From: a virus
Virus record (IMG/VR): IMGVR_UViG_3300033146_005322
Location: 1 to 21,567 of that record
Length of the DNA stretch: 21,567 nt
Reading direction: 5' to 3' (one strand)
Shown here: one piece after another, positions 1-21,567 of the stretch
Layout: each line of letters opens with the position of its first letter
How positions within the stretch are numbered: the stretch's first letter is position 1
Notes under the pieces: generated by a model
Told to the model about the DNA's origin: nothing
Database searches by the model: none
What the model saw: only the letters and a program-made list of their open reading frames with translations
Position numbers and translations under genes: made by a program

Positions 1-218
1 GGCCCCACCGTCGGCCTAGTCGGCTCCGGGTGACGCCTTACAGTCGGCGGAGAGAGAAGAGAGATATGCTAGACGCGTTTCTCTCGGGCGGGACGCTGGG
101 TCCCCCTAGGGACCAGCGCCCGCTCTTGCGCCTTCTGGCTCCGTAAAGGGGCCAAGAGAGCCGCTAAGGAGGCGGACTGGTAGGACGCATCATGTGAGGG
201 CGTTTAAGGCGGCGTATG
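1..218 (+). ncRNA. Candidate structured RNA element, copy 1 (may start before the window)
   Basis: This is the first of two direct repeats of about 235 bases in a gene-free stretch. Read on the plus strand it folds into a series of local hairpins. A small stem pairs 19-21/23-25 with 29-34. A stem pairs 59-64 with 80-85. A long stem spans 88-123, with arms 88-92/119-123, 94-98/114-118 and 100-104/109-113, single A and G bulges, and loop CCTA. A bulged hairpin has arms 123-127/154-158 and 137-142/148-153 with loop GTAAA. There is no plausible coding frame with an SD sequence, and it does not fold as a tRNA cloverleaf. Strand assignment rests on G-U-compatible differences from copy 2. I do not recognise the family. 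A DNA-level role such as a protein-binding or recombination site remains possible. Confidence 0.45.
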
Positions 219-235
219 GGGCCTTCTCGTGGCCC

Positions 236-453
236 GGCCCCCATCGTCGGCCTAGTCGGCTTCGAGCGACGCTTTACAGTCGGCGAGTGAGAAGAGAGAT
301 ATGCTAGACGCGTTTCTCTCGGGCGGGACGCTGGGTCCCCCTAGGGACCAGCGCCCGCTCTTGCGCCTTCTGGCCCCGTAAAGGGGGCAAGAGAGCCGCT
401 AAGGAGGCGGACTGGTAGGACGCATCATGTGGGGGCGTTTAAAGCGGCGTATG
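236..453 (+). ncRNA. Candidate structured RNA element, copy 2
   Basis: This is the second copy of the repeat. It is offset by 236 bases from copy 1 at its start and by 235 after a one-base indel near 285-292. The long bulged hairpin (323-358) is identical to copy 1. Differences fall mostly in loops or keep pairing. In the first stem, 265 and 267 give A-U and G-C pairs where copy 1 has G-U pairs. In the GTAAA-loop hairpin, 375 gives C-G where copy 1 has U-G. One change (387, G for C) breaks a pair. The copy ends about 20 bases beyond the stop codon of the neighbouring minus-strand gene. No promoter or terminator for plus-strand transcription could be recognised. Confidence 0.45.
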
Positions 454-474: not shown

Positions 475-1056
475 TTATCGGGCCAGCATCCGCATCGGGA
501 AGCCGTCGCTCTCGATCATTCGCCTGGTGTTGACGACGTAGAGAAGACAGTCGCCTGCGAGGAGGCGGGCCACCGTTGGGGCTGAGAGGTCGAAGACGGC
601 CTGATACGTGACCTCTGTTGGGTCGGCGCTGCTCACCATGGCCCCGCGTATGGTGGCGGTCCCTGACGGCGCCAGAGGGATGCCTGTGCGCCTGTTGATG
701 GCGGGGCAGACGATGGACATCATCACGTCGTCTGAGGAGACGCCGAGATCGGAGCCCGCCACGGTCATCGTGACCTTCTGCCCGTCTTGGATGGTCGCTG
801 GATCAGGCATATCAGTGAAGGCGGCGCCGATCACAGGGGCGTTGTCTACTCGCCACATCTCCTGGTCGATAAAATCGCCGTTCGCCCCGTAGGTCTTCTG
901 ACGCTTGATAACCACGGCGGAGCCGGCGTCCGAGGCGTCCTGTCGGAACAGCGCCTCCTCGTCGGAGGTCGTCGCGATGGCGCCGAGGTTGGTCCGGTGG
1001 ACCTCCGGCTCCATCATCATCTCCACGAACATCTTCGACTTTTTTAGGACCCTCAT
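475..1056 (-). CDS. Phage protein of unknown function, 193 residues
   Basis: I do not recognise this protein. It starts at an ATG preceded at six bases by GAGG, and internal Met codons at residues 9 and 13-15 have less suitable upstream sequence. The first 35 residues are Met-rich and helical in character. From about residue 70 the sequence is rich in Thr, Val, Ala and Gly with alternating hydrophobics, consistent with a small beta-sandwich domain. There is no signal peptide and no membrane segment. It is the last gene of the appendage block, separated from the 401-residue gene by a structured gap of 258 bases and followed by the tandem structured repeats. By position it could be a virion component, but this is inference only. 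Confidence 0.75.
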   Translation of the reverse strand: MRVLKKSKMFVEMMMEPEVHRTNLGAIATTSDEEALFRQDASDAGSAVVIKRQKTYGANGDFIDQEMWRVDNAPVIGAAFTDMPDPATIQDGQKVTMTVAGSDLGVSSDDVMMSIVCPAINRRTGIPLAPSGTATIRGAMVSSADPTEVTYQAVFDLSAPTVARLLAGDCLLYVVNTRRMIESDGFPMRMLAR

Positions 1057-2700: not shown

Positions 2701-5700
2701 CTAGGCATCATAGCAGACTTCGGGGGCATATGGGGCATCGCGCTGAGATCGCTTTATGCGCACTACCGCCCTTGAGGCCGGAGAGACGCGCCCTGTCACT
2801 TTGTCCCGCAAGAAGAACCGCGTCTCGGCGATGTTTCTGGCCGACCGCCGACCGAGGTAGCAATATTGCGGCGGGGCCCACGAGGACATCTCAATCCAGA
2901 CCAGCCCCCGTCGCGGGTGTGACTGCGAAATCGAGAGCTTGCGGATGAGGCTGGAGCGACCCTCCCCCGAGAACAGGGCGTAGAGGTCGTATTTGGTCTG
3001 ATCGAAGTAGTCCACCGAGATGCGGTCAATCCCGACAGGCTTGATCATGACTGCGTGCCGATCTCCACTCTGCATGTGATAAAGGACGATCCGGCTGGAC
3101 ACCCCCTCCAGCGCATCTCTGTTGGCGATCGCGGCGGACGCCCCGACTCCGGTGTCCCAACCCCAGCTGTTGACCCCTGGCATCTGGAGGTTGCAGAAGA
3201 TTCGGTGCTCGCCGGTTGAGGCCGCCGTGTTGGTGACGACCGAGTCGTCGGCCAGGGCCTCGATCCCGCTCGAGCCCCACATTCGGCGATGCCCTGGAAA
3301 CGGCAGCTCAGACTCGAACCCTTGTCGGGGGAGGCTGTACATCTTCCGGTGGTTCGTCGCAAACCACACGATTCTATCCTCGCCCGCCAAGTTAACCCCC
3401 GTGCCCAGATCGCCGCCCATCTGGAGGCGCATGTCTGAGAACCAGGCGCTCACGTTGCTCCACTCCAGGACGGCCGTATCCAACGTCTTGTGGCTGGAGT
3501 TCTTGTATCTCTTGTGGGTGAGGGCCGAGAAGAAGGAGTTGACGCCGTACACGCGAGAGATCGGCTGGATACCTCCGTCGATCTCGTCGTACACGCGCAT
3601 CCGGATTACGTTAAGCGGGCCGACCCCGCTTGGGGCGCAGTGGTCTGACACAAACGAGTAAATGTCAGCGACAGAGGCGAAGCGAAGGCGCTTCCACTCA
3701 TTGATCGTGGCGCCAGTGGTGTCATCGATCTCAATGACGTCCCACATGCAGTCGATATAGGAGTCCGGGTGGTGCTGGACTGTCGCTCCACCAGCAGCCC
3801 CCTGGATCTTCTCGGGGAAGCTCGCTTGCGTCCAGTTCTGCCCCGGCTTGAGCAGGCGGAAGGAGTCGTGGTCGATGCGCTGGCGGGAGATACCGTCGTC
3901 CTGCGACACCTTGACCCACATAAGCCCGTCGCACTGAATGTTGACGGACTCCCACTGGGCGCGAATGTCTACAGTCCCGACCCCCGAAATCCTCTCTACC
4001 CCAGCCGCCTTTATGCGAACAATGTGGCTGCTGGAGTCCGTGCGAAGGAATCGAAGGAGGCGGTACTTGCTCAGCAGGACCGCGGGAAGCTCTATCTCGA
4101 TATCGGTGGTGCCGGCGTCAATCAGCACTGTTGAGATCCCGTCTGTGTCAGTCAGGACCGTGTCGGCCGTCACCGTCTCGATATGCGTCCCGAAGGCCCC
4201 CGCGACCACAAGGTCGTCTGGGGCCGTCGTGGTTACTGTGGTCCCATTGCGATCCCAGGGGGTTGAGTCCGGGGCAATCGGGATATCCTTGATGTCCCAC
4301 TTCACCGCCAGGTAGTTGATCAGGTTGCCGCGCTCGGCCTCGGTGAGGCGGCGCGAGTAGACCAGGATCTCGGCCATCTCGCCCAAGTAGCGAGAGGTGA
4401 ACTCGGTGTCCCCGATCATCAGGGCTTCTGTTCCAGCCGTAATGTCTGCGATCGTGCCGCCGGAGGTGCCGAGGAGGTTGCCGTTGATGTACGCCTGTAG
4501 ATTGCCCGCAGGGGCCCAGGCCATCTCCGTAATCTGCCAGTCGCCGGCGTAGCTCGGAGATATAGTCACGTTCTGGTTTGGCGTGCCGGTCCCCGCCTCG
4601 TAGATGCGAGCCCGACTGGTGATTACATACCACTCGCGCTGGTCGCCAGTGGTGTCGCCCTTGCCGATGTAGGTGTCGCCGGAGGCCTCGGGTTTGGCAA
4701 CGACGAAGACATGGAGCCCCCGCCCGACGCCGTTGTTGTGCACCGAGACGTCGCCGAAGGACAAGGACTGGCCGCCTAAATAGTCGAGGGTGTCTCGGTG
4801 GTTCTGAGAGGCGGTCACCAGCGTTGGCCGCGCCGTGGTGAGGGCGGTTCCCACTCTGGTCCCAGAGGCGTCTTTGCTCGTGATCGAGTCAACCAGGGCT
4901 CCGGTCGTCGAGACGGTGGTGCTGTCGTCTGGGTCTATCCACAGCTCCAGGTTGGCGACATCATCCGGGATCACGAGAGTCCCGTAGCCGCGCGACCCAA
5001 GGGTTCTAACCTCGCCGGCGACGAGGACGAATGTGACGTAACCGAACGGGGCGATCTGGCGACCGTCGAGGCTGTCGTCGATCTCGTGCCCGTTAGGGTC
5101 GATTATCATCCTGTAGTCGCTCAGGTTGTGGAGCGTAACCCTCTGCCCTTCTTTGAAACCGGAGAGGTCTGAGGGGAAGGTGACCGTGGCGTCTGTGACA
5201 CCCACGAGGTGTAGCGAGTCGATCATCCACGACTCTGTGGCGCCATAGTCGGAGGTTATGGACTTGACGCGCGGAACGACGACACCAGAGAGCTGCAGGT
5301 CGCCGGGGTTAGGCATCGAGCTGTAGCTGACGCCGGGGCCGACCATGGCGTCGGGGATAGACTCCCGGCTGGAGAACTTCACCACGTCCATGTGCGACGT
5401 GAAGGTCGCGCCGGATGAGCTGTCGTTGCGGCAAAACCACTCTTCTTCCCCGTTGCCAAGCGGGCCGAAGTCGCCTTGGCCCACGATGAGGGTGTTACCC
5501 CTGGAGAGGGTGCGGTGGTCGCCGTTTGGTGGGCGAACCCGGAAGAAGTGGAGGGCGCCATCGGTCCCCGCCGCGCGAGTCTCGACCGTGACGCTGTTGT
5601 CGGCGTAAACAGAGGGGATGCCATTCGATACCGAATGGTCATCGAATATGGTCAGCTCACAGTCTCCTCCGTCGGCCAGAGCGTGAATTGTGTTGTTGGC

Positions 5701-6561
5701 GATTACCGCTACGGACCCGGGTGTGCTCTGGCCATGATTCTGGAGCACGGTCGTGCCGTAGCCCGCGTCGCTCTCCTGCGTCATTGTGATCGTGTTGTCC
5801 GCGAACAAGAAGTGCGAGCTGGTGCTTCGGGAGATCAGCGTGCATTCACCGCTGCCGGTTTTTACGGTCGTAAAGGTGCAGCCTCGGATGATATGCGCCG
5901 AGGCCGCCCCGACCATCCTCACGAGCTGGTTGGTTGATGTCCCTTCGGCGTAGAAGTGGCAGTTGATGATGTTGTGATCGCCTGAGTCCATTAGCAGCAG
6001 GCGGCTAGAGTTGGCCCCGTAAACGGTGCGGACACCCATGTTAAGCAGGTCCGAATTTGCGCTGGCGCCCCACTGGATCGCGTTGCCGCTGGTCACAGTC
6101 ACCCGGCAGGTCCGGGGGTCGCGCCCTACCAGGTCTACGCCGTCTTTTAAGACCACGTTCTCAGCGTAGTCTCCAGGATGGACCAAGACGACCCACCTCT
6201 CTCCGGGGGCCACTGTGATCGAATCGATCGCCGCCTGGATGGAGGTAAATGGGCGCCCCGCCTTCGCCACCTCGACTGTGTAGGCGGGCGTGGTCGCGAG
6301 GAACTCCGCCTCCCCCCAGTTCCCGTCCAGGATTCCACCAGTGAGCGCATAGAGTTTCTCTATCCCGCCACCGGCGTCGAGCACTTTGACCAGCATGCCC
6401 TCCTTGCGGCGTGGCGCGGGAATGGCGTTGCGCTCGGCGATCGTGGCGACCGTCCTGTAGCCGCCATGATGATAAAGCTCCGACTGAGAGGCGTATGTGT
6501 CTGAGCTGTCGGTGGGGGCAATGAAGCCACCAACGCGCACTGATCCGGGAATAGCAGCCAT
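2701..6561 (-). CDS. Modular phage spike/fibre: anchor, beta-helix, LamG-like and C-terminal domains, 1286 residues
   Basis: This is probably a receptor-binding or glycan-binding virion appendage. Residues 1-85 match the N-termini of the 346- and 348-residue proteins (GGFIAP, GGYR, RRKEGMLVK, LTGGILD.NW) and probably attach it to the virion. Residues about 95-430 resemble a right-handed parallel beta-helix of the pectin-lyase type, with PFTSIQAAID, then VHPGDYAENV and repeated short turns. A small beta domain follows at about 460-525. Residues about 535-757 resemble a concanavalin A/LamG domain (LELWIDPDD, YINGNLLG, GEMAEILVYSRRL, YLAVKWD). Another small beta domain covers about 800-885. Residues about 900-1286 are shared with the next gene. 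The ATG has AGGAG eight bases upstream, within an inverted repeat. Tailspike enzymes often have this layout, but I cannot point to catalytic residues. Confidence 0.9.
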   Translation of the reverse strand: MAAIPGSVRVGGFIAPTDSSDTYASQSELYHHGGYRTVATIAERNAIPAPRRKEGMLVKVLDAGGGIEKLYALTGGILDGNWGEAEFLATTPAYTVEVAKAGRPFTSIQAAIDSITVAPGERWVVLVHPGDYAENVVLKDGVDLVGRDPRTCRVTVTSGNAIQWGASANSDLLNMGVRTVYGANSSRLLLMDSGDHNIINCHFYAEGTSTNQLVRMVGAASAHIIRGCTFTTVKTGSGECTLISRSTSSHFLFADNTITMTQESDAGYGTTVLQNHGQSTPGSVAVIANNTIHALADGGDCELTIFDDHSVSNGIPSVYADNSVTVETRAAGTDGALHFFRVRPPNGDHRTLSRGNTLIVGQGDFGPLGNGEEEWFCRNDSSSGATFTSHMDVVKFSSRESIPDAMVGPGVSYSSMPNPGDLQLSGVVVPRVKSITSDYGATESWMIDSLHLVGVTDATVTFPSDLSGFKEGQRVTLHNLSDYRMIIDPNGHEIDDSLDGRQIAPFGYVTFVLVAGEVRTLGSRGYGTLVIPDDVANLELWIDPDDSTTVSTTGALVDSITSKDASGTRVGTALTTARPTLVTASQNHRDTLDYLGGQSLSFGDVSVHNNGVGRGLHVFVVAKPEASGDTYIGKGDTTGDQREWYVITSRARIYEAGTGTPNQNVTISPSYAGDWQITEMAWAPAGNLQAYINGNLLGTSGGTIADITAGTEALMIGDTEFTSRYLGEMAEILVYSRRLTEAERGNLINYLAVKWDIKDIPIAPDSTPWDRNGTTVTTTAPDDLVVAGAFGTHIETVTADTVLTDTDGISTVLIDAGTTDIEIELPAVLLSKYRLLRFLRTDSSSHIVRIKAAGVERISGVGTVDIRAQWESVNIQCDGLMWVKVSQDDGISRQRIDHDSFRLLKPGQNWTQASFPEKIQGAAGGATVQHHPDSYIDCMWDVIEIDDTTGATINEWKRLRFASVADIYSFVSDHCAPSGVGPLNVIRMRVYDEIDGGIQPISRVYGVNSFFSALTHKRYKNSSHKTLDTAVLEWSNVSAWFSDMRLQMGGDLGTGVNLAGEDRIVWFATNHRKMYSLPRQGFESELPFPGHRRMWGSSGIEALADDSVVTNTAASTGEHRIFCNLQMPGVNSWGWDTGVGASAAIANRDALEGVSSRIVLYHMQSGDRHAVMIKPVGIDRISVDYFDQTKYDLYALFSGEGRSSLIRKLSISQSHPRRGLVWIEMSSWAPPQYCYLGRRSARNIAETRFFLRDKVTGRVSPASRAVVRIKRSQRDAPYAPEVCYDA

Positions 6562-6572
6562 GGAGTGACTCC
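6562..6572 (-). promoter_or_regulatory. SD and complementary sequence directly before the spike ATG
   Basis: On the sense strand GGAG (6572-6569), TCA, CTCC (6565-6562) is followed immediately by the ATG. The GGAG is the SD sequence, so it can pair with CTCC in a small hairpin. The same arrangement with a longer stem occurs at 19590-19602. It may damp initiation; the hairpin is short and the effect is inferred. Confidence 0.4.
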
Positions 6573-6596
6573 TGCTGAGGATTGGCTAATTGACAT

Positions 6597-6609
6597 GAGA
6601 GTAACAGAG
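6597..6609 (-). promoter_or_regulatory. Shared 13-base intergenic motif, site C
   Basis: The plus-strand sequence GAGAGTAACAGAG matches the consensus GAGARTARCAGRG seen also at 7739-7751 and 9714-9726. It lies 36-48 bases upstream of the spike ATG. Its role is unknown; a phage promoter element or RNA site is possible. The rest of this 93-base gap is pyrimidine-rich on the sense strand with no clear terminator. Confidence 0.45.
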
Positions 6610-6654
6610 GGTCGGGGAGGGCAAAAGAGCGAGGAGGGCAGATGCTACTCCAGT

Positions 6655-7701
6655 TTAGAGGCCGACCTCGATATCCATAGCGGCAGAGAGCTGGTTGACG
6701 CTGCGGTAGACGACATAGTCGTGAGCCACGCCTTCGGCGTTGGTCACGGAGATATTGCCGGCGCCGTGGAGCTGGAAGGGCACATTCATTCCGGTCTGAG
6801 TGTCCTTAAACGTCGTCGGCGCCGTGGAGCCGAGCGGGTAGGCGATGTACTTATACTCGCCGGACGCGGCGGCGAAGTTATAGGTGCGCGCCACCGTGTC
6901 GGTCAGGTCGGCGTAGTTCCAGAGACCCTTGATGCCCGCCTCGTTCAGCGTGGAGGCGGAGTCGGTGCCGGCGTAGTAGCGCCACAGCCAGTCGTAGGTC
7001 AGCGTGGAGCTGAACGTGTTGGGGCCGTCGGGGTCGGTGTCCGTGGCTGAGACCACAAAGTTATGGCTGTGAGGGACATTGTAGGTCAGGGCGGCTTGCG
7101 TGGAGACGTACGGAGTGGCCGCGGGATCCAGGCCGCTGGCGACCGCCAGCGGCGTGGTCGTGTCGTCCAGGTCGACCGAGAGGGCGGCTACCTTGGAGAC
7201 GCTGTCGATCGCCCATGAGTAGGTCGGGTTGGCGGCGAGGGTAGCGCCGACCTCGACGGGGTCGCCGGCGCTCACGGGCCAGCTGACCCCGCCGTCCTGA
7301 ATGTCGAAGCTGGTGAACGTGGGCGCCACGTAGGGGTAGAGGATCGTGTCGAGCAGCGTGCTCAGGGGTACGGCGGCGAAGGTGTCGCCTACGTCAATGC
7401 CACCGTGGGCCACCTCAATCGCGCTGGCGTTGGTGTACGTCTCGCCGCCGCTGAACGACTGGACCGCCCAGTTGGCGTCGAGAATGCCGCCCGTCAGCGT
7501 CCAGATGTCGCCGGTGTCGACCTGCTTGACGAGCATGCCCTCTTTGCGGCGGCCAGGAGTGATGGCGAGGCGCTCTGCAGCGTCGGCCACAGAGCGATAG
7601 CCACCGAGGTTGTAGACCTCGGACTGGGCTGCATAAGTATCTGCGGTATCTGTGGGGGCGATAAAGCCGCCGACGCGTACTGAACCTGTAATGGCCGCCA
7701 T
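6655..7701 (-). CDS. Beta-rich virion appendage protein, paralogue family, 348 residues
   Basis: Residues 1-85 form the same N-terminal domain as in the spike and the 346-residue protein (GSVRVGGFIAP, GGYRSVADAAERLAI, RRKEGMLVKQ, LTGGILDANW). From about residue 89 there is a second domain (YTNA..I.VAHGG, DTFAA, LYPY.APTF) also present in the 346 and 268 proteins. An Ig-like or PKD-like stretch follows (PTYSWAI), and the C-terminal block contains EYKYIAYP, F.D...G.NVPF and an ending in VYRS.NQ..AAMDI. The ATG has AGGAG upstream. There is no signal peptide or coiled coil. Lengths of 346 and 348 and the shared order point to gene duplication. It is probably a fibre, head decoration or collar component; which one cannot be decided from sequence. 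Confidence 0.88.
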   Translation of the reverse strand: MAAITGSVRVGGFIAPTDTADTYAAQSEVYNLGGYRSVADAAERLAITPGRRKEGMLVKQVDTGDIWTLTGGILDANWAVQSFSGGETYTNASAIEVAHGGIDVGDTFAAVPLSTLLDTILYPYVAPTFTSFDIQDGGVSWPVSAGDPVEVGATLAANPTYSWAIDSVSKVAALSVDLDDTTTPLAVASGLDPAATPYVSTQAALTYNVPHSHNFVVSATDTDPDGPNTFSSTLTYDWLWRYYAGTDSASTLNEAGIKGLWNYADLTDTVARTYNFAAASGEYKYIAYPLGSTAPTTFKDTQTGMNVPFQLHGAGNISVTNAEGVAHDYVVYRSVNQLSAAMDIEVGL

Positions 7702-7738
7702 GGTCTTCTCCTGATCTGGACTGGATTGTCCTTTTGGG

Positions 7739-7751
7739 GAGAATAGCAGAG
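7739..7751 (-). promoter_or_regulatory. Shared 13-base intergenic motif, site B
   Basis: The plus-strand sequence GAGAATAGCAGAG matches the consensus GAGARTARCAGRG. It lies in the 75-base gap between the 346- and 348-residue genes, 25 bases after the stop codon and 37 bases before the next ATG. It differs from the other two sites at one or two positions, mostly R for R. Confidence 0.45.
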
Positions 7752-7776
7752 CCAGGGCGACTAGAGGAGAGAGAAG

Positions 7777-8817
7777 TTAGACGGTGACGACAATATCCAT
7801 CGCGGCGGCCATCTGGTTGGTGCTGCGGTAGACCTTGTAGTCCTCGTCCTCCCCGTTGGAGTTGGTGACGGCGGACTCTGTCACCGGGGCCTCGAACGGG
7901 ATATTGAGGCCGGTCGCGTCATCCTTGAATGACGTCGGCTGGGCCTGAGAGGCTGGGACGCAGATGTACTTGTACTCGCCTGGGCTCGTGGCGGGGAACG
8001 AGTAGGTCCGGGCCGCGTCGGTGGCCGGCTCGTTGAAGACCGAGAAGAGGATCATCTGCGCGCCGGTCACCGATGTCGCGACGCTGTTGTCGGCGTACAC
8101 GCTCCACTCCCACTGGTAGGAGACCGTCAGGTCGACGGCCTCTCCGCCGTCCGGGTTCATGTCTGTCCCGCTGATCTTGAATCGGTGCGCGCCAGGAGCC
8201 AAGAACTTCACGGCCGCCCCGTTCGTGGCCGCCTCCGTCCCATCCGCCACCGTCTTGTCTGCAAAGGTGTAGACCAGCGGGGTGTCGAGGCTCTCGATGC
8301 TGTCGAAGCTTGAGCTGACGAAGTCCGCCGCCGCCCCGGTGAAGCTCCAGCTGAACGTGGGCGTGGCCGGGATGGCCTCGCCCACCTCGAGCAGGACGCT
8401 CGGGTCTCTTGCGTCCACCATGAGCGCCGTGAACGTCGGGGCGATATACGGATAGAGGATCGCGTCGAACATATCCGAGACAGGCGTGGCGGCAAAGGTG
8501 TCGCCCACCCCGACGCCCCCGTGCGCGACCTGGACGGGAGTGGCGTTGGTGTACGTGCCGCCGCCGCCCATCGGCTGGACCGCCCAGTTGGCATCCAGGA
8601 TGCCCCCAGTGAGCGTCCAGAACGCGCCGGTGTCGATCTGCTTCACGAGCATCCCGAGCTTGCGGCGGTCTGCGGTGATGGCGAGGCGGGCTGCGGTGTC
8701 TGCCACCGACCTGTATCCGCCTCTGTTCCAGAATTCGTCTTGAGTTGCGTATGAGTCCGTGTCGTCTGAGGGGGCGATAAACCCGCCCATTCGTACCGAT
8801 CCAGGTATGGCTGCCAT
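7777..8817 (-). CDS. Beta-rich virion appendage protein, paralogue family, 346 residues
   Basis: This is a close paralogue of the 348-residue protein over its whole length. It has the N-terminal anchor-like domain 1-85 (GGFIAP, GGYRSVADTAARLAI, RRKLGMLVKQIDTG, LTGGILDANWAVQ), the linker GGGGTYTNATP, the VAHGGVGVGDTFAA and LYPYIAPTF block, an Ig-like stretch (PTFSWSFTG), and the C-terminal EYKYI, FKDD.TG.NIPFE and VYRSTNQMAAAMDI motifs. The ATG has AAGGAG nine bases upstream. The gene starts 19 bases after the stop codon of the 268-residue gene, so the two are probably co-transcribed. It is probably a structural protein assembled on the virion surface; no enzymatic motif was seen. Confidence 0.88.
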   Translation of the reverse strand: MAAIPGSVRMGGFIAPSDDTDSYATQDEFWNRGGYRSVADTAARLAITADRRKLGMLVKQIDTGAFWTLTGGILDANWAVQPMGGGGTYTNATPVQVAHGGVGVGDTFAATPVSDMFDAILYPYIAPTFTALMVDARDPSVLLEVGEAIPATPTFSWSFTGAAADFVSSSFDSIESLDTPLVYTFADKTVADGTEAATNGAAVKFLAPGAHRFKISGTDMNPDGGEAVDLTVSYQWEWSVYADNSVATSVTGAQMILFSVFNEPATDAARTYSFPATSPGEYKYICVPASQAQPTSFKDDATGLNIPFEAPVTESAVTNSNGEDEDYKVYRSTNQMAAAMDIVVTV

Positions 8818-10209: not shown

Positions 10210-10245
10210 CTGTTGGCCTCCTTTAGTTGAGGCCCAATAGATAAC

Positions 10246-10281
10246 AAAAAAGGCCCCCCGCCGACAGCGAGAAGCCCCTTT
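10246..10281 (-). terminator. Probable intrinsic terminator after the major capsid gene
   Basis: On the sense strand AAAGG (10281-10277) pairs with CCTTT (10253-10249). The inner arms CTTCTCGC and GCGGGGGG pair with several G-U pairs around a five-base loop, and a run of six T residues (10251-10246) follows. It lies 26 bases after the capsid stop codon and upstream of the SD of the next gene, where a late transcription unit could end or be attenuated. Confidence 0.6.
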
Positions 10282-10306
10282 ATTCGCTCGGGTGAGTCTG
10301 CGCCTG

Positions 10307-11594: not shown

Positions 11595-12752
11595 TTAGCG
11601 CATCAATGGGCTGATCTTGACTTCGCCAAGCACGACGTCTCCGATCGCGCAGCCGGCGGTGTGCATCTGCCAGGGGAGGCCGCCAGTGGCGGTTCCTGGC
11701 ATGGCGTCAATCGCGCCAAAGCCGGGAGCGAGAGAGCTGTCCCAGCGAGTCATGACGTTGCCGAGCAGCGCCTGGGGATAGGTTGTCACCACGTCGATGA
11801 CCTGGCCGACAATGCGAGCCTTGGCGCGGATCATCTCGGTGCTGAGAGCGGCGCGGTTGTTGGGGATGACGGCTGTCGGGTCGAGGGCGCCCGCCAGCGT
11901 CGCCCCGGTGGCCGCCACGACGTCTGAGTTGCTGTCGTAGGTGACGTAGGCGCCGCGCACGAACTCCGCATAAGCAGAGGCGTCAGGGGCAATGGCGAGA
12001 GCCTGGCCCGTGACGATGGCCCCGGAGCGGTCGGCTCGGATGGGGTACATGAAGACGTCCTCCGCCACGAGGATCGTCGCCCGGTCTTGACCGAACTCCC
12101 AGTTGTAGTTGCGGAGCTGAGCGCCGTTGCGGACCGCCTTCTCGAAGAGGGTATCGGGGGTGTGATTCGCGGTGGCGTGAGCGACGATGCTGTCCTTGCT
12201 GTTGCGATACAGCATGTGACCAGCGCAGCCGATATGGTTGCCGATGGTCATCCAGGAGGCATAGTTGACGGTCACGAGGGGGGAATCCCAGGGAGTCGCT
12301 ATGCCGGTGCCCGTATTGCAGAACATGCTCCACACGACGGGTTCGCCTACGCCCACCGGGAGGCCCACGGCGTTGACGACGTTGTTGTCAACGTCCACCT
12401 GGGTGTACTTGTCCAGCTCGTAGTTGTTGGCGGCCAGGGCCCCTAGGCTCGCTTCTGCAGCCGCGATAGCCACTGAAGGGGCCGCGCCCATGGTGGAGGC
12501 GATGGCGATGGCCATCGCCTCATGCTGAATCGCGAGGCCGGCCGGCACGATGTATCCAACCGAGTCCAGCGCGACCCACTTACCCGAGAGGATGACGTAG
12601 TGCTCGCCGTGACGCGTGTTCTCGTAGCCGAGATTGAGGTAGGGCGCCACGTTGGTGTTCAGATTGGGCTTCTCAGTGAAGCTCGCAATCCGCGGATTGG
12701 GCATGACCGTAGAGACGTCTGTTCTGTCGGTCTTGGAGGGGGCGTTGATCAT
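11595..12752 (-). CDS. Probable head-associated structural protein, 385 residues
   Basis: It lies between the protease/scaffold gene and the major capsid gene, with a gap of only 10 bases to the latter, a position often held by head decoration or minor capsid proteins. The sequence is rich in Ala, Val, Gly, Asn and Thr with short beta-prone stretches and an Ala-rich helix near 78-108 (HEAMAIAIASTMGAAP). Cysteines are sparse (near 145, 176 and 369). The start is an ATG with GGAG eight bases upstream. No signal peptide or membrane helix is present, and I see no enzymatic motif. A role as a decoration or vertex protein is inferred from position only. A second capsid-like subunit is an alternative, but the neighbouring 425-residue protein has the better HK97-like pattern. 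Confidence 0.8.
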   Translation of the reverse strand: MINAPSKTDRTDVSTVMPNPRIASFTEKPNLNTNVAPYLNLGYENTRHGEHYVILSGKWVALDSVGYIVPAGLAIQHEAMAIAIASTMGAAPSVAIAAAEASLGALAANNYELDKYTQVDVDNNVVNAVGLPVGVGEPVVWSMFCNTGTGIATPWDSPLVTVNYASWMTIGNHIGCAGHMLYRNSKDSIVAHATANHTPDTLFEKAVRNGAQLRNYNWEFGQDRATILVAEDVFMYPIRADRSGAIVTGQALAIAPDASAYAEFVRGAYVTYDSNSDVVAATGATLAGALDPTAVIPNNRAALSTEMIRAKARIVGQVIDVVTTYPQALLGNVMTRWDSSLAPGFGAIDAMPGTATGGLPWQMHTAGCAIGDVVLGEVKISPLMR

Positions 12753-19589: not shown

Positions 19590-19602
19590 GGAGGTCACCT
19601 CC
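19590..19602 (-). promoter_or_regulatory. SD-stop-anti-SD hairpin linking terminase to the next gene
   Basis: The sense strand reads GGAGG TGA CCTCC directly followed by ATG. GGAGG is the SD of the 159-residue gene, TGA is the terminase stop codon (19597-19595) and forms the loop, and CCTCC is the complement. A perfect 5-bp stem would hide the SD until a ribosome ending the terminase opens it. This is an elegant coupling signal, but not tested. Confidence 0.6.
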
Positions 19603-21567
19603 TCTTGCGTGGGATTGAGCGGCTTACGGGGGCGCGGCCTCTGGCCCCTGACATCCCCCTGGTTCGCTGCGACTTTAACGTGCTCCGCCGTGTCTTACTA
19701 GACTGTCGTGTCTTGTTCGTTCTGGCCGCCGCTTCGTCTACCGGTATGAACCCCTGGGCGCCAAGCCCCTTGGTCTCCTGCCTATCCTCAAGCCTGAGCC
19801 TCTCCTTCGCCGTAGACGCCACCGACGTTATCTGGTTAGGCGACCTACGCTCCAACCCAGAAGGCGTGTTCATGAACTTGACCTTCTTGACGTAGGTTGG
19901 ATTGCCCATAGAAGAGAACTTCATGGTGAACGCAAACAAGGCCAGCACCATGGCGTCGAGCTTGTGGTCCTTCACCGCCTTGCTGACCGTCGTGTAGCTG
20001 ATGCGGTCGCCCGATGTGGATTTGACTACATAGCCTCGGAGTTGGCGCTCGAGCTCCTTGTCTGTCTTAGGGATGCGCAGCGCCCCTGCCTCCAGGAACC
20101 GCACGGCGTTATCCACCATCGCTGGCTTCGCCCAAACCTTCTGGACAGTGCCGTCGACTGGATGTCTGACCTCAATCTTGGAGCCCGAGTCTACGGCGCG
20201 CAGCGCCGACCTGAGCCTCGCCGCCTCGGTGCCGGCAGGGGCCTTGCTGCTGTGGTCTTCCAGCAGCTCTATCTGGGCGAAGCCGGCGCCTTTGTCTACG
20301 TAGAGGCTGTCCGGAGCCCAGTGCTCAAACATCTTCACCAGCTCAGCCAACGTATGCAGCTGTGTGTATTCGACGCGCGGGGCGGAGTAGGTGTCGACGA
20401 TGTAGTGGAGTGGCGTTGTGGCGTTCTTATTGAGGCCAATCACGCAGACCTCGGTGCCGTTGACCGGGTTCCAGTCCACGCCCATCATGTAGATCCAGCC
20501 CTTTTGCGGCTTGACGCGGCCGTACCGGTGCTCCCCGGTCATCGCTATTTCTATGTCGGAGGGCTTGAAGACGCCAAGGTCGGTCTCACCATACTGGGCG
20601 CAGTTGAACGTCCTTATCCCGCTGAGGAGAAGGTATGAGTGGTCGGCCGTATCAACGGTTATGTTGTACGTCTTTCTGCCGTCGACCCTTTTTCTTGCGT
20701 CTATCTTCAGCGCCAAGCCACCGTCGCTGGTCGATCTTGACTCAAGCCAATCCTCAAACCCCTCCACCGGGAGGTCAACGAGCCTCTTGGAGACTCGTCC
20801 ATACTTTGCTGTGCAGACCTGCCTGTACGTCAGCTCTGTGGCGGCCACGGCCGCTATATTGCCTTCCGCGTCGGCCACAGACCTTGCCTTTGCGAAGGGC
20901 TTCTTCTTCTCGAGGTGATGCAGTAAGACCTTGGTGTATGTGACCCACTTCCAGGCTAAGTTGGACTTTCGTTCTGCGTATCTATACCCGACGTTGGAAA
21001 AGAACCTCTGAGAGTTCTCTATGTCATTGTGGACATAGAGAATGTAGACCGTGTTCCGCCCTACTACCGAGCTCTTTACGACTGACGACACGCCGAGGTC
21101 CCTCAGCAGCCCTTTGAGCTCCCTGAAGAATCCGCTCCCATTTATCCCGACGCGCTTGCACATCGACAGGGCTACCGTCTTTGCTCGCCTAGTCCCCCTG
21201 TCGCCCACTCTTGGGGTCGAGCCCTTGGCTCCAAATAATGCAGCGACAAACTCCCTCTTCACCGCGAGGGTCCCGTTCGTTACAAACGACGGGACTGAGA
21301 ATCTCTGCTCTACCTTCTTGCCTCGCGCAACACCAAGCTCTATCAGCTCTTTTGCGATCCTAGTCGAGACCTGCACCGTGAACCTGTCCCCACCTACCTT
21401 CGCTAAGCTGCTCTCGCCCGGCGTCACCCGGTCATGTCTGACTGATCCTCGAAAAGACGGCCATAGCCTCTGTACGTCGAGCCGCAGCCGCTCCATGTCT
21501 TCGCCGGTGCCACTATCGAAGACAGCAAAAAACCTGACTGGATGCGAGTAGCCGCCCCCTAAGTTGT
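19595..21567 (-). CDS. terL: Terminase large subunit with intein, C-terminal part (5' end outside window)
   Basis: This is the motor-nuclease that cuts and packages phage DNA. The frame stays open to the right edge, so the ATG at 21496 is not the true start. Residue numbers below count from that ATG. Residues up to 298 belong to an intein. The C-extein begins at Cys299 (CAQYGETDLG) and holds an RNase H-like nuclease domain. Its likely metal-binding acids are Asp341 (MGVDWN), Asp401 (LYVDKGAG) and Asp514 (HKLDAMVLAL). The last 85 residues are basic and Ser/Arg/Lys-rich, perhaps a DNA- or portal-binding tail. The ATPase domain with Walker motifs would lie upstream, outside the window. The stop overlaps the SD hairpin of the next gene. 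Gene order with the portal and protease supports the call. Confidence 0.92.
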   Translation of the reverse strand, partial: NLGGGYSHPVRFFAVFDSGTGEDMERLRLDVQRLWPSFRGSVRHDRVTPGESSLAKVGGDRFTVQVSTRIAKELIELGVARGKKVEQRFSVPSFVTNGTLAVKREFVAALFGAKGSTPRVGDRGTRRAKTVALSMCKRVGINGSGFFRELKGLLRDLGVSSVVKSSVVGRNTVYILYVHNDIENSQRFFSNVGYRYAERKSNLAWKWVTYTKVLLHHLEKKKPFAKARSVADAEGNIAAVAATELTYRQVCTAKYGRVSKRLVDLPVEGFEDWLESRSTSDGGLALKIDARKRVDGRKTYNITVDTADHSYLLLSGIRTFNCAQYGETDLGVFKPSDIEIAMTGEHRYGRVKPQKGWIYMMGVDWNPVNGTEVCVIGLNKNATTPLHYIVDTYSAPRVEYTQLHTLAELVKMFEHWAPDSLYVDKGAGFAQIELLEDHSSKAPAGTEAARLRSALRAVDSGSKIEVRHPVDGTVQKVWAKPAMVDNAVRFLEAGALRIPKTDKELERQLRGYVVKSTSGDRISYTTVSKAVKDHKLDAMVLALFAFTMKFSSMGNPTYVKKVKFMNTPSGLERRSPNQITSVASTAKERLRLEDRQETKGLGAQGFIPVDEAAARTNKTRQSSKTRRSTLKSQRTRGMSGARGRAPVSRSIPRKRR
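20603..21567 (-). mobile_element. Intein with LAGLIDADG-type endonuclease domain, partial
   Basis: The C-terminal splicing blocks are clear: TYNITVDTADHSYLLLSG followed by IRTFN and then Cys as the first C-extein residue; splicing would cut between Asn298 and Cys299 (20603/20602). The penultimate residue is Phe, where most inteins have His. Upstream is a homing-endonuclease region: STRIAKELIELGV, then FVAALFGAKGS at 83-93 in the place of the second LAGLIDADG motif. Its catalytic acidic position is Lys. The region then continues FFRELKGLLRDLGV and FFSNVGYRYAERKS, as in two-motif DOD endonucleases. The first motif and the N-terminal splice site lie to the right of the window. It interrupts the terminase just before the nuclease domain. 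Confidence 0.88.

Follow-up and report, generated by a model that had tools for sequence, protein, structure and literature searches.

A tandemly duplicated, structured intergenic element beside the virion genes of an uncultured large phage: a candidate orphan non-coding RNA

GOLLD and ROOL are large, ornate structured non-coding RNAs of phages that have no known function and are often encoded near tRNA islands (PMC12286853). Structured motifs that occur in tandem have been described in bacteria as STAXI, which consists mainly of a repeated pseudoknot, and pan (PMC2864571), and RNAs derived from the antisense strand of the giant phage phiR1-37 are described in a review (PMC12197685). The element analyzed here lies at the left end of a stretch of DNA, hereafter the window, which makes up a complete IMG/VR record of 21,567 bases. 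The element belongs to a kind of thing already known, the orphan phage candidate for a structured RNA, but has no match among described families.

Phage and genomic context

All genes of the record are located on the minus strand, opposite to the strand of the modelled RNA, in agreement with the initial annotation. The right end is occupied by a fragment of an intein-bearing terminase large subunit gene (19595-21565, minus strand; intein model match at residues 17-322, E 5e-25), and after the intein this frame continues with a nuclease-like C-terminal part starting CAQYGETD. The other minus-strand genes encode a portal, a major capsid protein and, in one block, surface-type proteins. Compared with their counterparts in the large phages Acinetobacter ME3, Bacillus KLEB27-3 and Moorella MTATph1, the capsid and portal proteins show 26-32% identity, and nearer proteins are found in IMG/VR contigs (best 43-49% identity). 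The record is a fragment of a large, uncultured tailed phage without close relatives in collections, and ARAGORN at standard thresholds identified no tRNA gene in it. The gene neighbouring the element (475-1056, minus strand) encodes a protein of 193 amino acids, the homologue of which adjoins the capsid genes in the related phage G036.

Several other features were observed in the record. Three adjoining proteins (2701-6561, 6655-7701 and 7777-8817, minus strand) have an N-terminal domain of the same type (MAAIPGSVRVGGFIAP...), and the block 2701-8817 has thus expanded by duplication. Intergenic tandem arrays with units of 31 and 30 bp, in about three copies each, occur at 1218-1309 and 2610-2695; they have a common core like GCGRCCRGACTCTMGC, read by eye, and possibly represent a lineage-specific repeat family between surface-protein genes. 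Immediately downstream of the major capsid gene, a long GC-rich hairpin with TTTTTT after it (10210-10306, minus strand) looks like an intrinsic terminator of that strand, and the gene at 11595-12752 has, in its 5′ part (12481-12698, minus strand), an unusually good mRNA fold (z -3.8, 200 shuffles).

The duplicated unit and its predicted fold

The initial annotation had proposed a duplicated unit at this position, and the duplication is real: copy 1 occupies 1-218 and copy 2 occupies 237-453 of the plus strand, and homology between the copies stops at 218 and 453, which leaves a linker of 18 bases (219-236) that can itself pair as a GGGCC/GGCCC hairpin (219-223 with 231-235). The copies, with a GC content of 65%, are approximately 95% identical and are distinguished by 11 substitutions and one 1-base indel, differences that make a duplicate created during assembly unlikely. 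A coding repeat was ruled out by the same indel together with the finding that no frame in 1-474 contains an open stretch of more than 65 codons. Because copy 1 starts at the end of the record, more copies may lie to the left of it; assemblies often break in repeats.

On the plus strand, the bare units fold more stably than dinucleotide shuffles (z -3.7 for copy 1 and -5.0 for copy 2), and a comparison with 131 further plus-strand windows from the record gave one z-score as low as that of copy 1 or lower, and none as low as that of copy 2. When flanking bases were included, the z-scores were -3.5 and -3.65 on the plus strand and -2.6 and -2.5 on the minus strand, the latter giving -2.5 and -3.0 for the bare units. 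A fold more stable than that of composition-matched shuffles, one general criterion for structured non-coding RNAs, was thus found for this unit. When copy 1 was mutated at random, 3 of 300 mutants were as stable as copy 2 on the plus strand, and 10 of 300 on the minus strand; the two-sequence RNAalifold energy was unremarkable (54/300).

The modelled plus-strand fold is well supported in a core formed by P3, P4 and P5, and in P6. Helix P3 (46-48/130-132; 282-284/365-367 in copy 2), with probabilities of 0.63 and 0.79, encloses hairpin P4 (59-85; 294-320) and hairpin P5 (86-125; 321-360), both of which are identical between the copies and predicted with a probability near 1. The 15-bp bulged stem recognized earlier (88-123 and 323-358) is the long stem of P5, and its identity in both copies holds, with a pairing probability of about 1. 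Hairpin P6 (133-158; 368-393) forms in each copy, with a register that slips by one between them. A further hairpin, P7, was drawn out of register in covariance model R2 (two non-pairs), the intended pairing being 162-164/172-174. The region had been interpreted as a chain of hairpins; strong structure is indeed predicted, but a simple chain is not the predicted minimum-energy fold.

The differences between the copies at 29-31/265-267, 37/273, 140/375 and 152/387 are all real, and their interpretation as wobble-compatible changes of a plus-strand RNA is right for the hairpins as drawn in the initial annotation. However, the first of these stems (about 19-34) has a pairing probability near 0 with Turner energies, and the wobble argument based on it is therefore weaker than it looks. 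The change at 152/387, which had been taken to break a pair, is absorbed in copy 2 by the register slip of P6 (slipped pairing 0.96) or, alternatively, by a compensated helix at 1-6/148-153, and the change at 37/273 also fits a long-range helix at 34-40/205-211, position 208/443 changing along with it.

When all helices common to both copies were listed, these two were the only ones with 6 or more pairs, perfect Watson-Crick pairing and changes on both sides. In the tentative closing helix P1 (34-40/205-211; 270-276/440-446 in copy 2), C37-G208 is replaced by U-A, and in the tentative pseudoknot helix (1-6/148-153; 237-242/383-388), G2-C152 is replaced by C-G. Among 100,000 random placements of the same substitutions, at least two such pairs arose in 0.18%, and 1.1% yielded a helix of 7 pairs or more; both frequencies are to be read as post hoc, the two helices having been picked after looking. 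P1 hardly appears in the RNA ensembles, and forcing it costs 4 and 12 kcal/mol in the two copies; the pseudoknot helix would cross P1 and be in competition with P6, and both helices fit either strand. The covariation found so far comprises these two compensated pairs between two paralogous copies, with no homologues found. If both helices were real and functional, the element would constitute a new class of pseudoknotted tandem-pair phage RNA located among the virion genes of an uncultured lineage of large phages, an outcome that we regard as improbable.

Relatives, favoured strand and competing readings

The unit had been described as unrecognized, and a check with the Rfam 15 covariance models upheld this, as no family reached the gathering threshold and nothing relevant appeared in 1-1400 even at E values up to 10; a known RNA family was ruled out on this basis. 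The covariance models of GOLLD, ROOL and OLE gave no match to the element, and a tRNA or tmRNA was excluded since ARAGORN at standard thresholds detected neither. A blastn search of 50,697 phage and 72,556 plasmid records returned no match, an exact 29-mer of the unit was absent from IMG/VR, and pattern scans of IMG/VR with short pieces returned either nothing or matches that failed model R2. The search of 50 related phage contigs with covariance model R1, which was run with a positive control, and that of 43 related contigs plus the window and of 85 related loci with R2 detected only the two copies in the window, with models built on two near-identical sequences that could miss distant relatives. 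The proposed check for conserved pairing in homologues accordingly returned no homologues and speaks neither for nor against the RNA. In G036, the closest relative, a gap of 77 bases separates the 475-1056 homologue from the gene that follows it, which indicates that the element is absent from the same place. The element is either confined to a narrow lineage or has relatives that have diverged beyond the reach of a two-sequence model, and this orphan status caps the confidence of any reading.

Strongly folded intergenic regions were also observed in another related phage contig, G032 (L143:240-790 and L143:1840-2070; plus-strand z -5.2 and minus-strand z -5.6). Neither has an Rfam match, and L143:240-790 is also without a match in the phage records; they are possibly further undescribed structured elements of this phage group. 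L143:240-790 was rejected as a relative of the present unit: the two appear alike by eye at CTAAGG..GCGGACTGG, but their alignment falls within the shuffles (23/200).

A plus-strand origin of the putative RNA is favoured. In line with the initial proposal of a plus-strand RNA, the plus strand folds better than the minus strand, by 16.6 and 19.5 kcal/mol for the two copies, and after correction for G+T content this bias ranks 20th and 12th among 348 windows, which is suggestive only. The wobble changes listed earlier all favour the plus strand, and the agreement of four by luck would have a chance of 1 in 16 by our own arithmetic. Neither a promoter nor a terminator was found in 1-474.

The reading towards which we lean, with reserve, is an orphan, tandemly duplicated, plus-strand non-coding phage RNA of approximately 218 nt, encoded opposite the late virion genes. 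Beyond the observed duplication, non-coding nature, stability exceeding that expected from composition and pairing-compatible changes, transcription would start at a promoter beyond the left end of the record and run rightwards, and one transcript would perhaps bear both units. The RNA would fold into a branched shape composed of the P3-P4-P5 core and P6 and might act in trans by that shape, probably through binding a host or phage protein. Action by shape rather than by long antisense pairing is suggested by the perfectly conserved parts being stem-loops, and antisense pairing is mildly disfavoured because complementarity to the late mRNAs of the record is no better than chance; an antisense RNA to these late genes was rejected, its complementarity not exceeding that of shuffles.

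The element also lies in the direction of late transcription, copy 2 being reached 21 bases past the stop codon of the 475-1056 gene, and could instead provide a late polycistronic mRNA with two folded domains for processing, protection or attenuation of the transcript between virion genes. In related phages, large tail genes come next; these are outside the window, and the late operon may therefore continue to the left; moreover, the minus-strand fold of the bare units also beats shuffles, and both compensated helices fit that strand too. This explanation nevertheless has to accommodate a minus strand whose fold is 16.6-19.5 kcal/mol weaker than that of the plus strand and copy differences that, in the hairpins as drawn, are wobble-compatible on the plus strand only, and the GC-rich hairpin with a T-run that would mark an intrinsic terminator of a late operon was not encountered on the minus strand within 1-474. 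We consider it unlikely, while giving it real weight.

The tandem GC-rich hairpins might alternatively operate as DNA, either single-stranded or in cruciform shape, and serve for instance replication, recombination or packaging, at the sites of which tandem arrays are common. With DNA energies, the best fold of copy 1 does contain a P1-P2-P3 stack (z -3.1), and the compensated helices are strand-neutral, but copy 2 is without this stack (P1 probability 0.17), and the unit is no simple iteron or palindrome array and folds differently on the two strands; we regard a DNA-level role as quite improbable. It is doubtful, too, that the locus is a recent, functionless tandem duplication of GC-rich intergenic DNA in which the strong fold and paired changes arose by chance: the GC-richness of the unit, the frequency of local duplication in the record (intergenic tandem repeats and repeated protein N-termini) and the finding of no conservation outside the record are all in keeping with such an origin, whereas the z-scores controlled for dinucleotide composition, the stability test on mutants and the compensated helices agree against it.

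Comparison with known structured RNAs

If the favoured plus-strand RNA is transcribed, it would represent an undescribed structured RNA of a poorly studied large-phage lineage, encoded in a virion-gene block and not beside tRNAs, and a compact duplicated phage RNA would be easier to probe than GOLLD or ROOL; if it is untranscribed, the locus warns that an RNA gene can be mimicked by tandem GC-rich repeats. The element has one point in common with each of the described systems and belongs to none of them. It shares with GOLLD and ROOL the character of a phage-encoded structured non-coding RNA, here a candidate known only from its sequence, but these RNAs far exceed it in length and are often found near tRNA islands, whereas the present unit has 218 nt, is arranged in tandem and is located beside virion genes. 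The tandem repetition of a structured unit is shared with STAXI and pan, which are families with many homologues, whereas the present unit is longer and has no Rfam family match. With the RNAs of phiR1-37, a lytic phage, it would have in common an RNA strand opposite to the genes of a large phage; those RNAs were seen by RNA sequencing, whereas the present element is intergenic and was recognized by sequence analysis.
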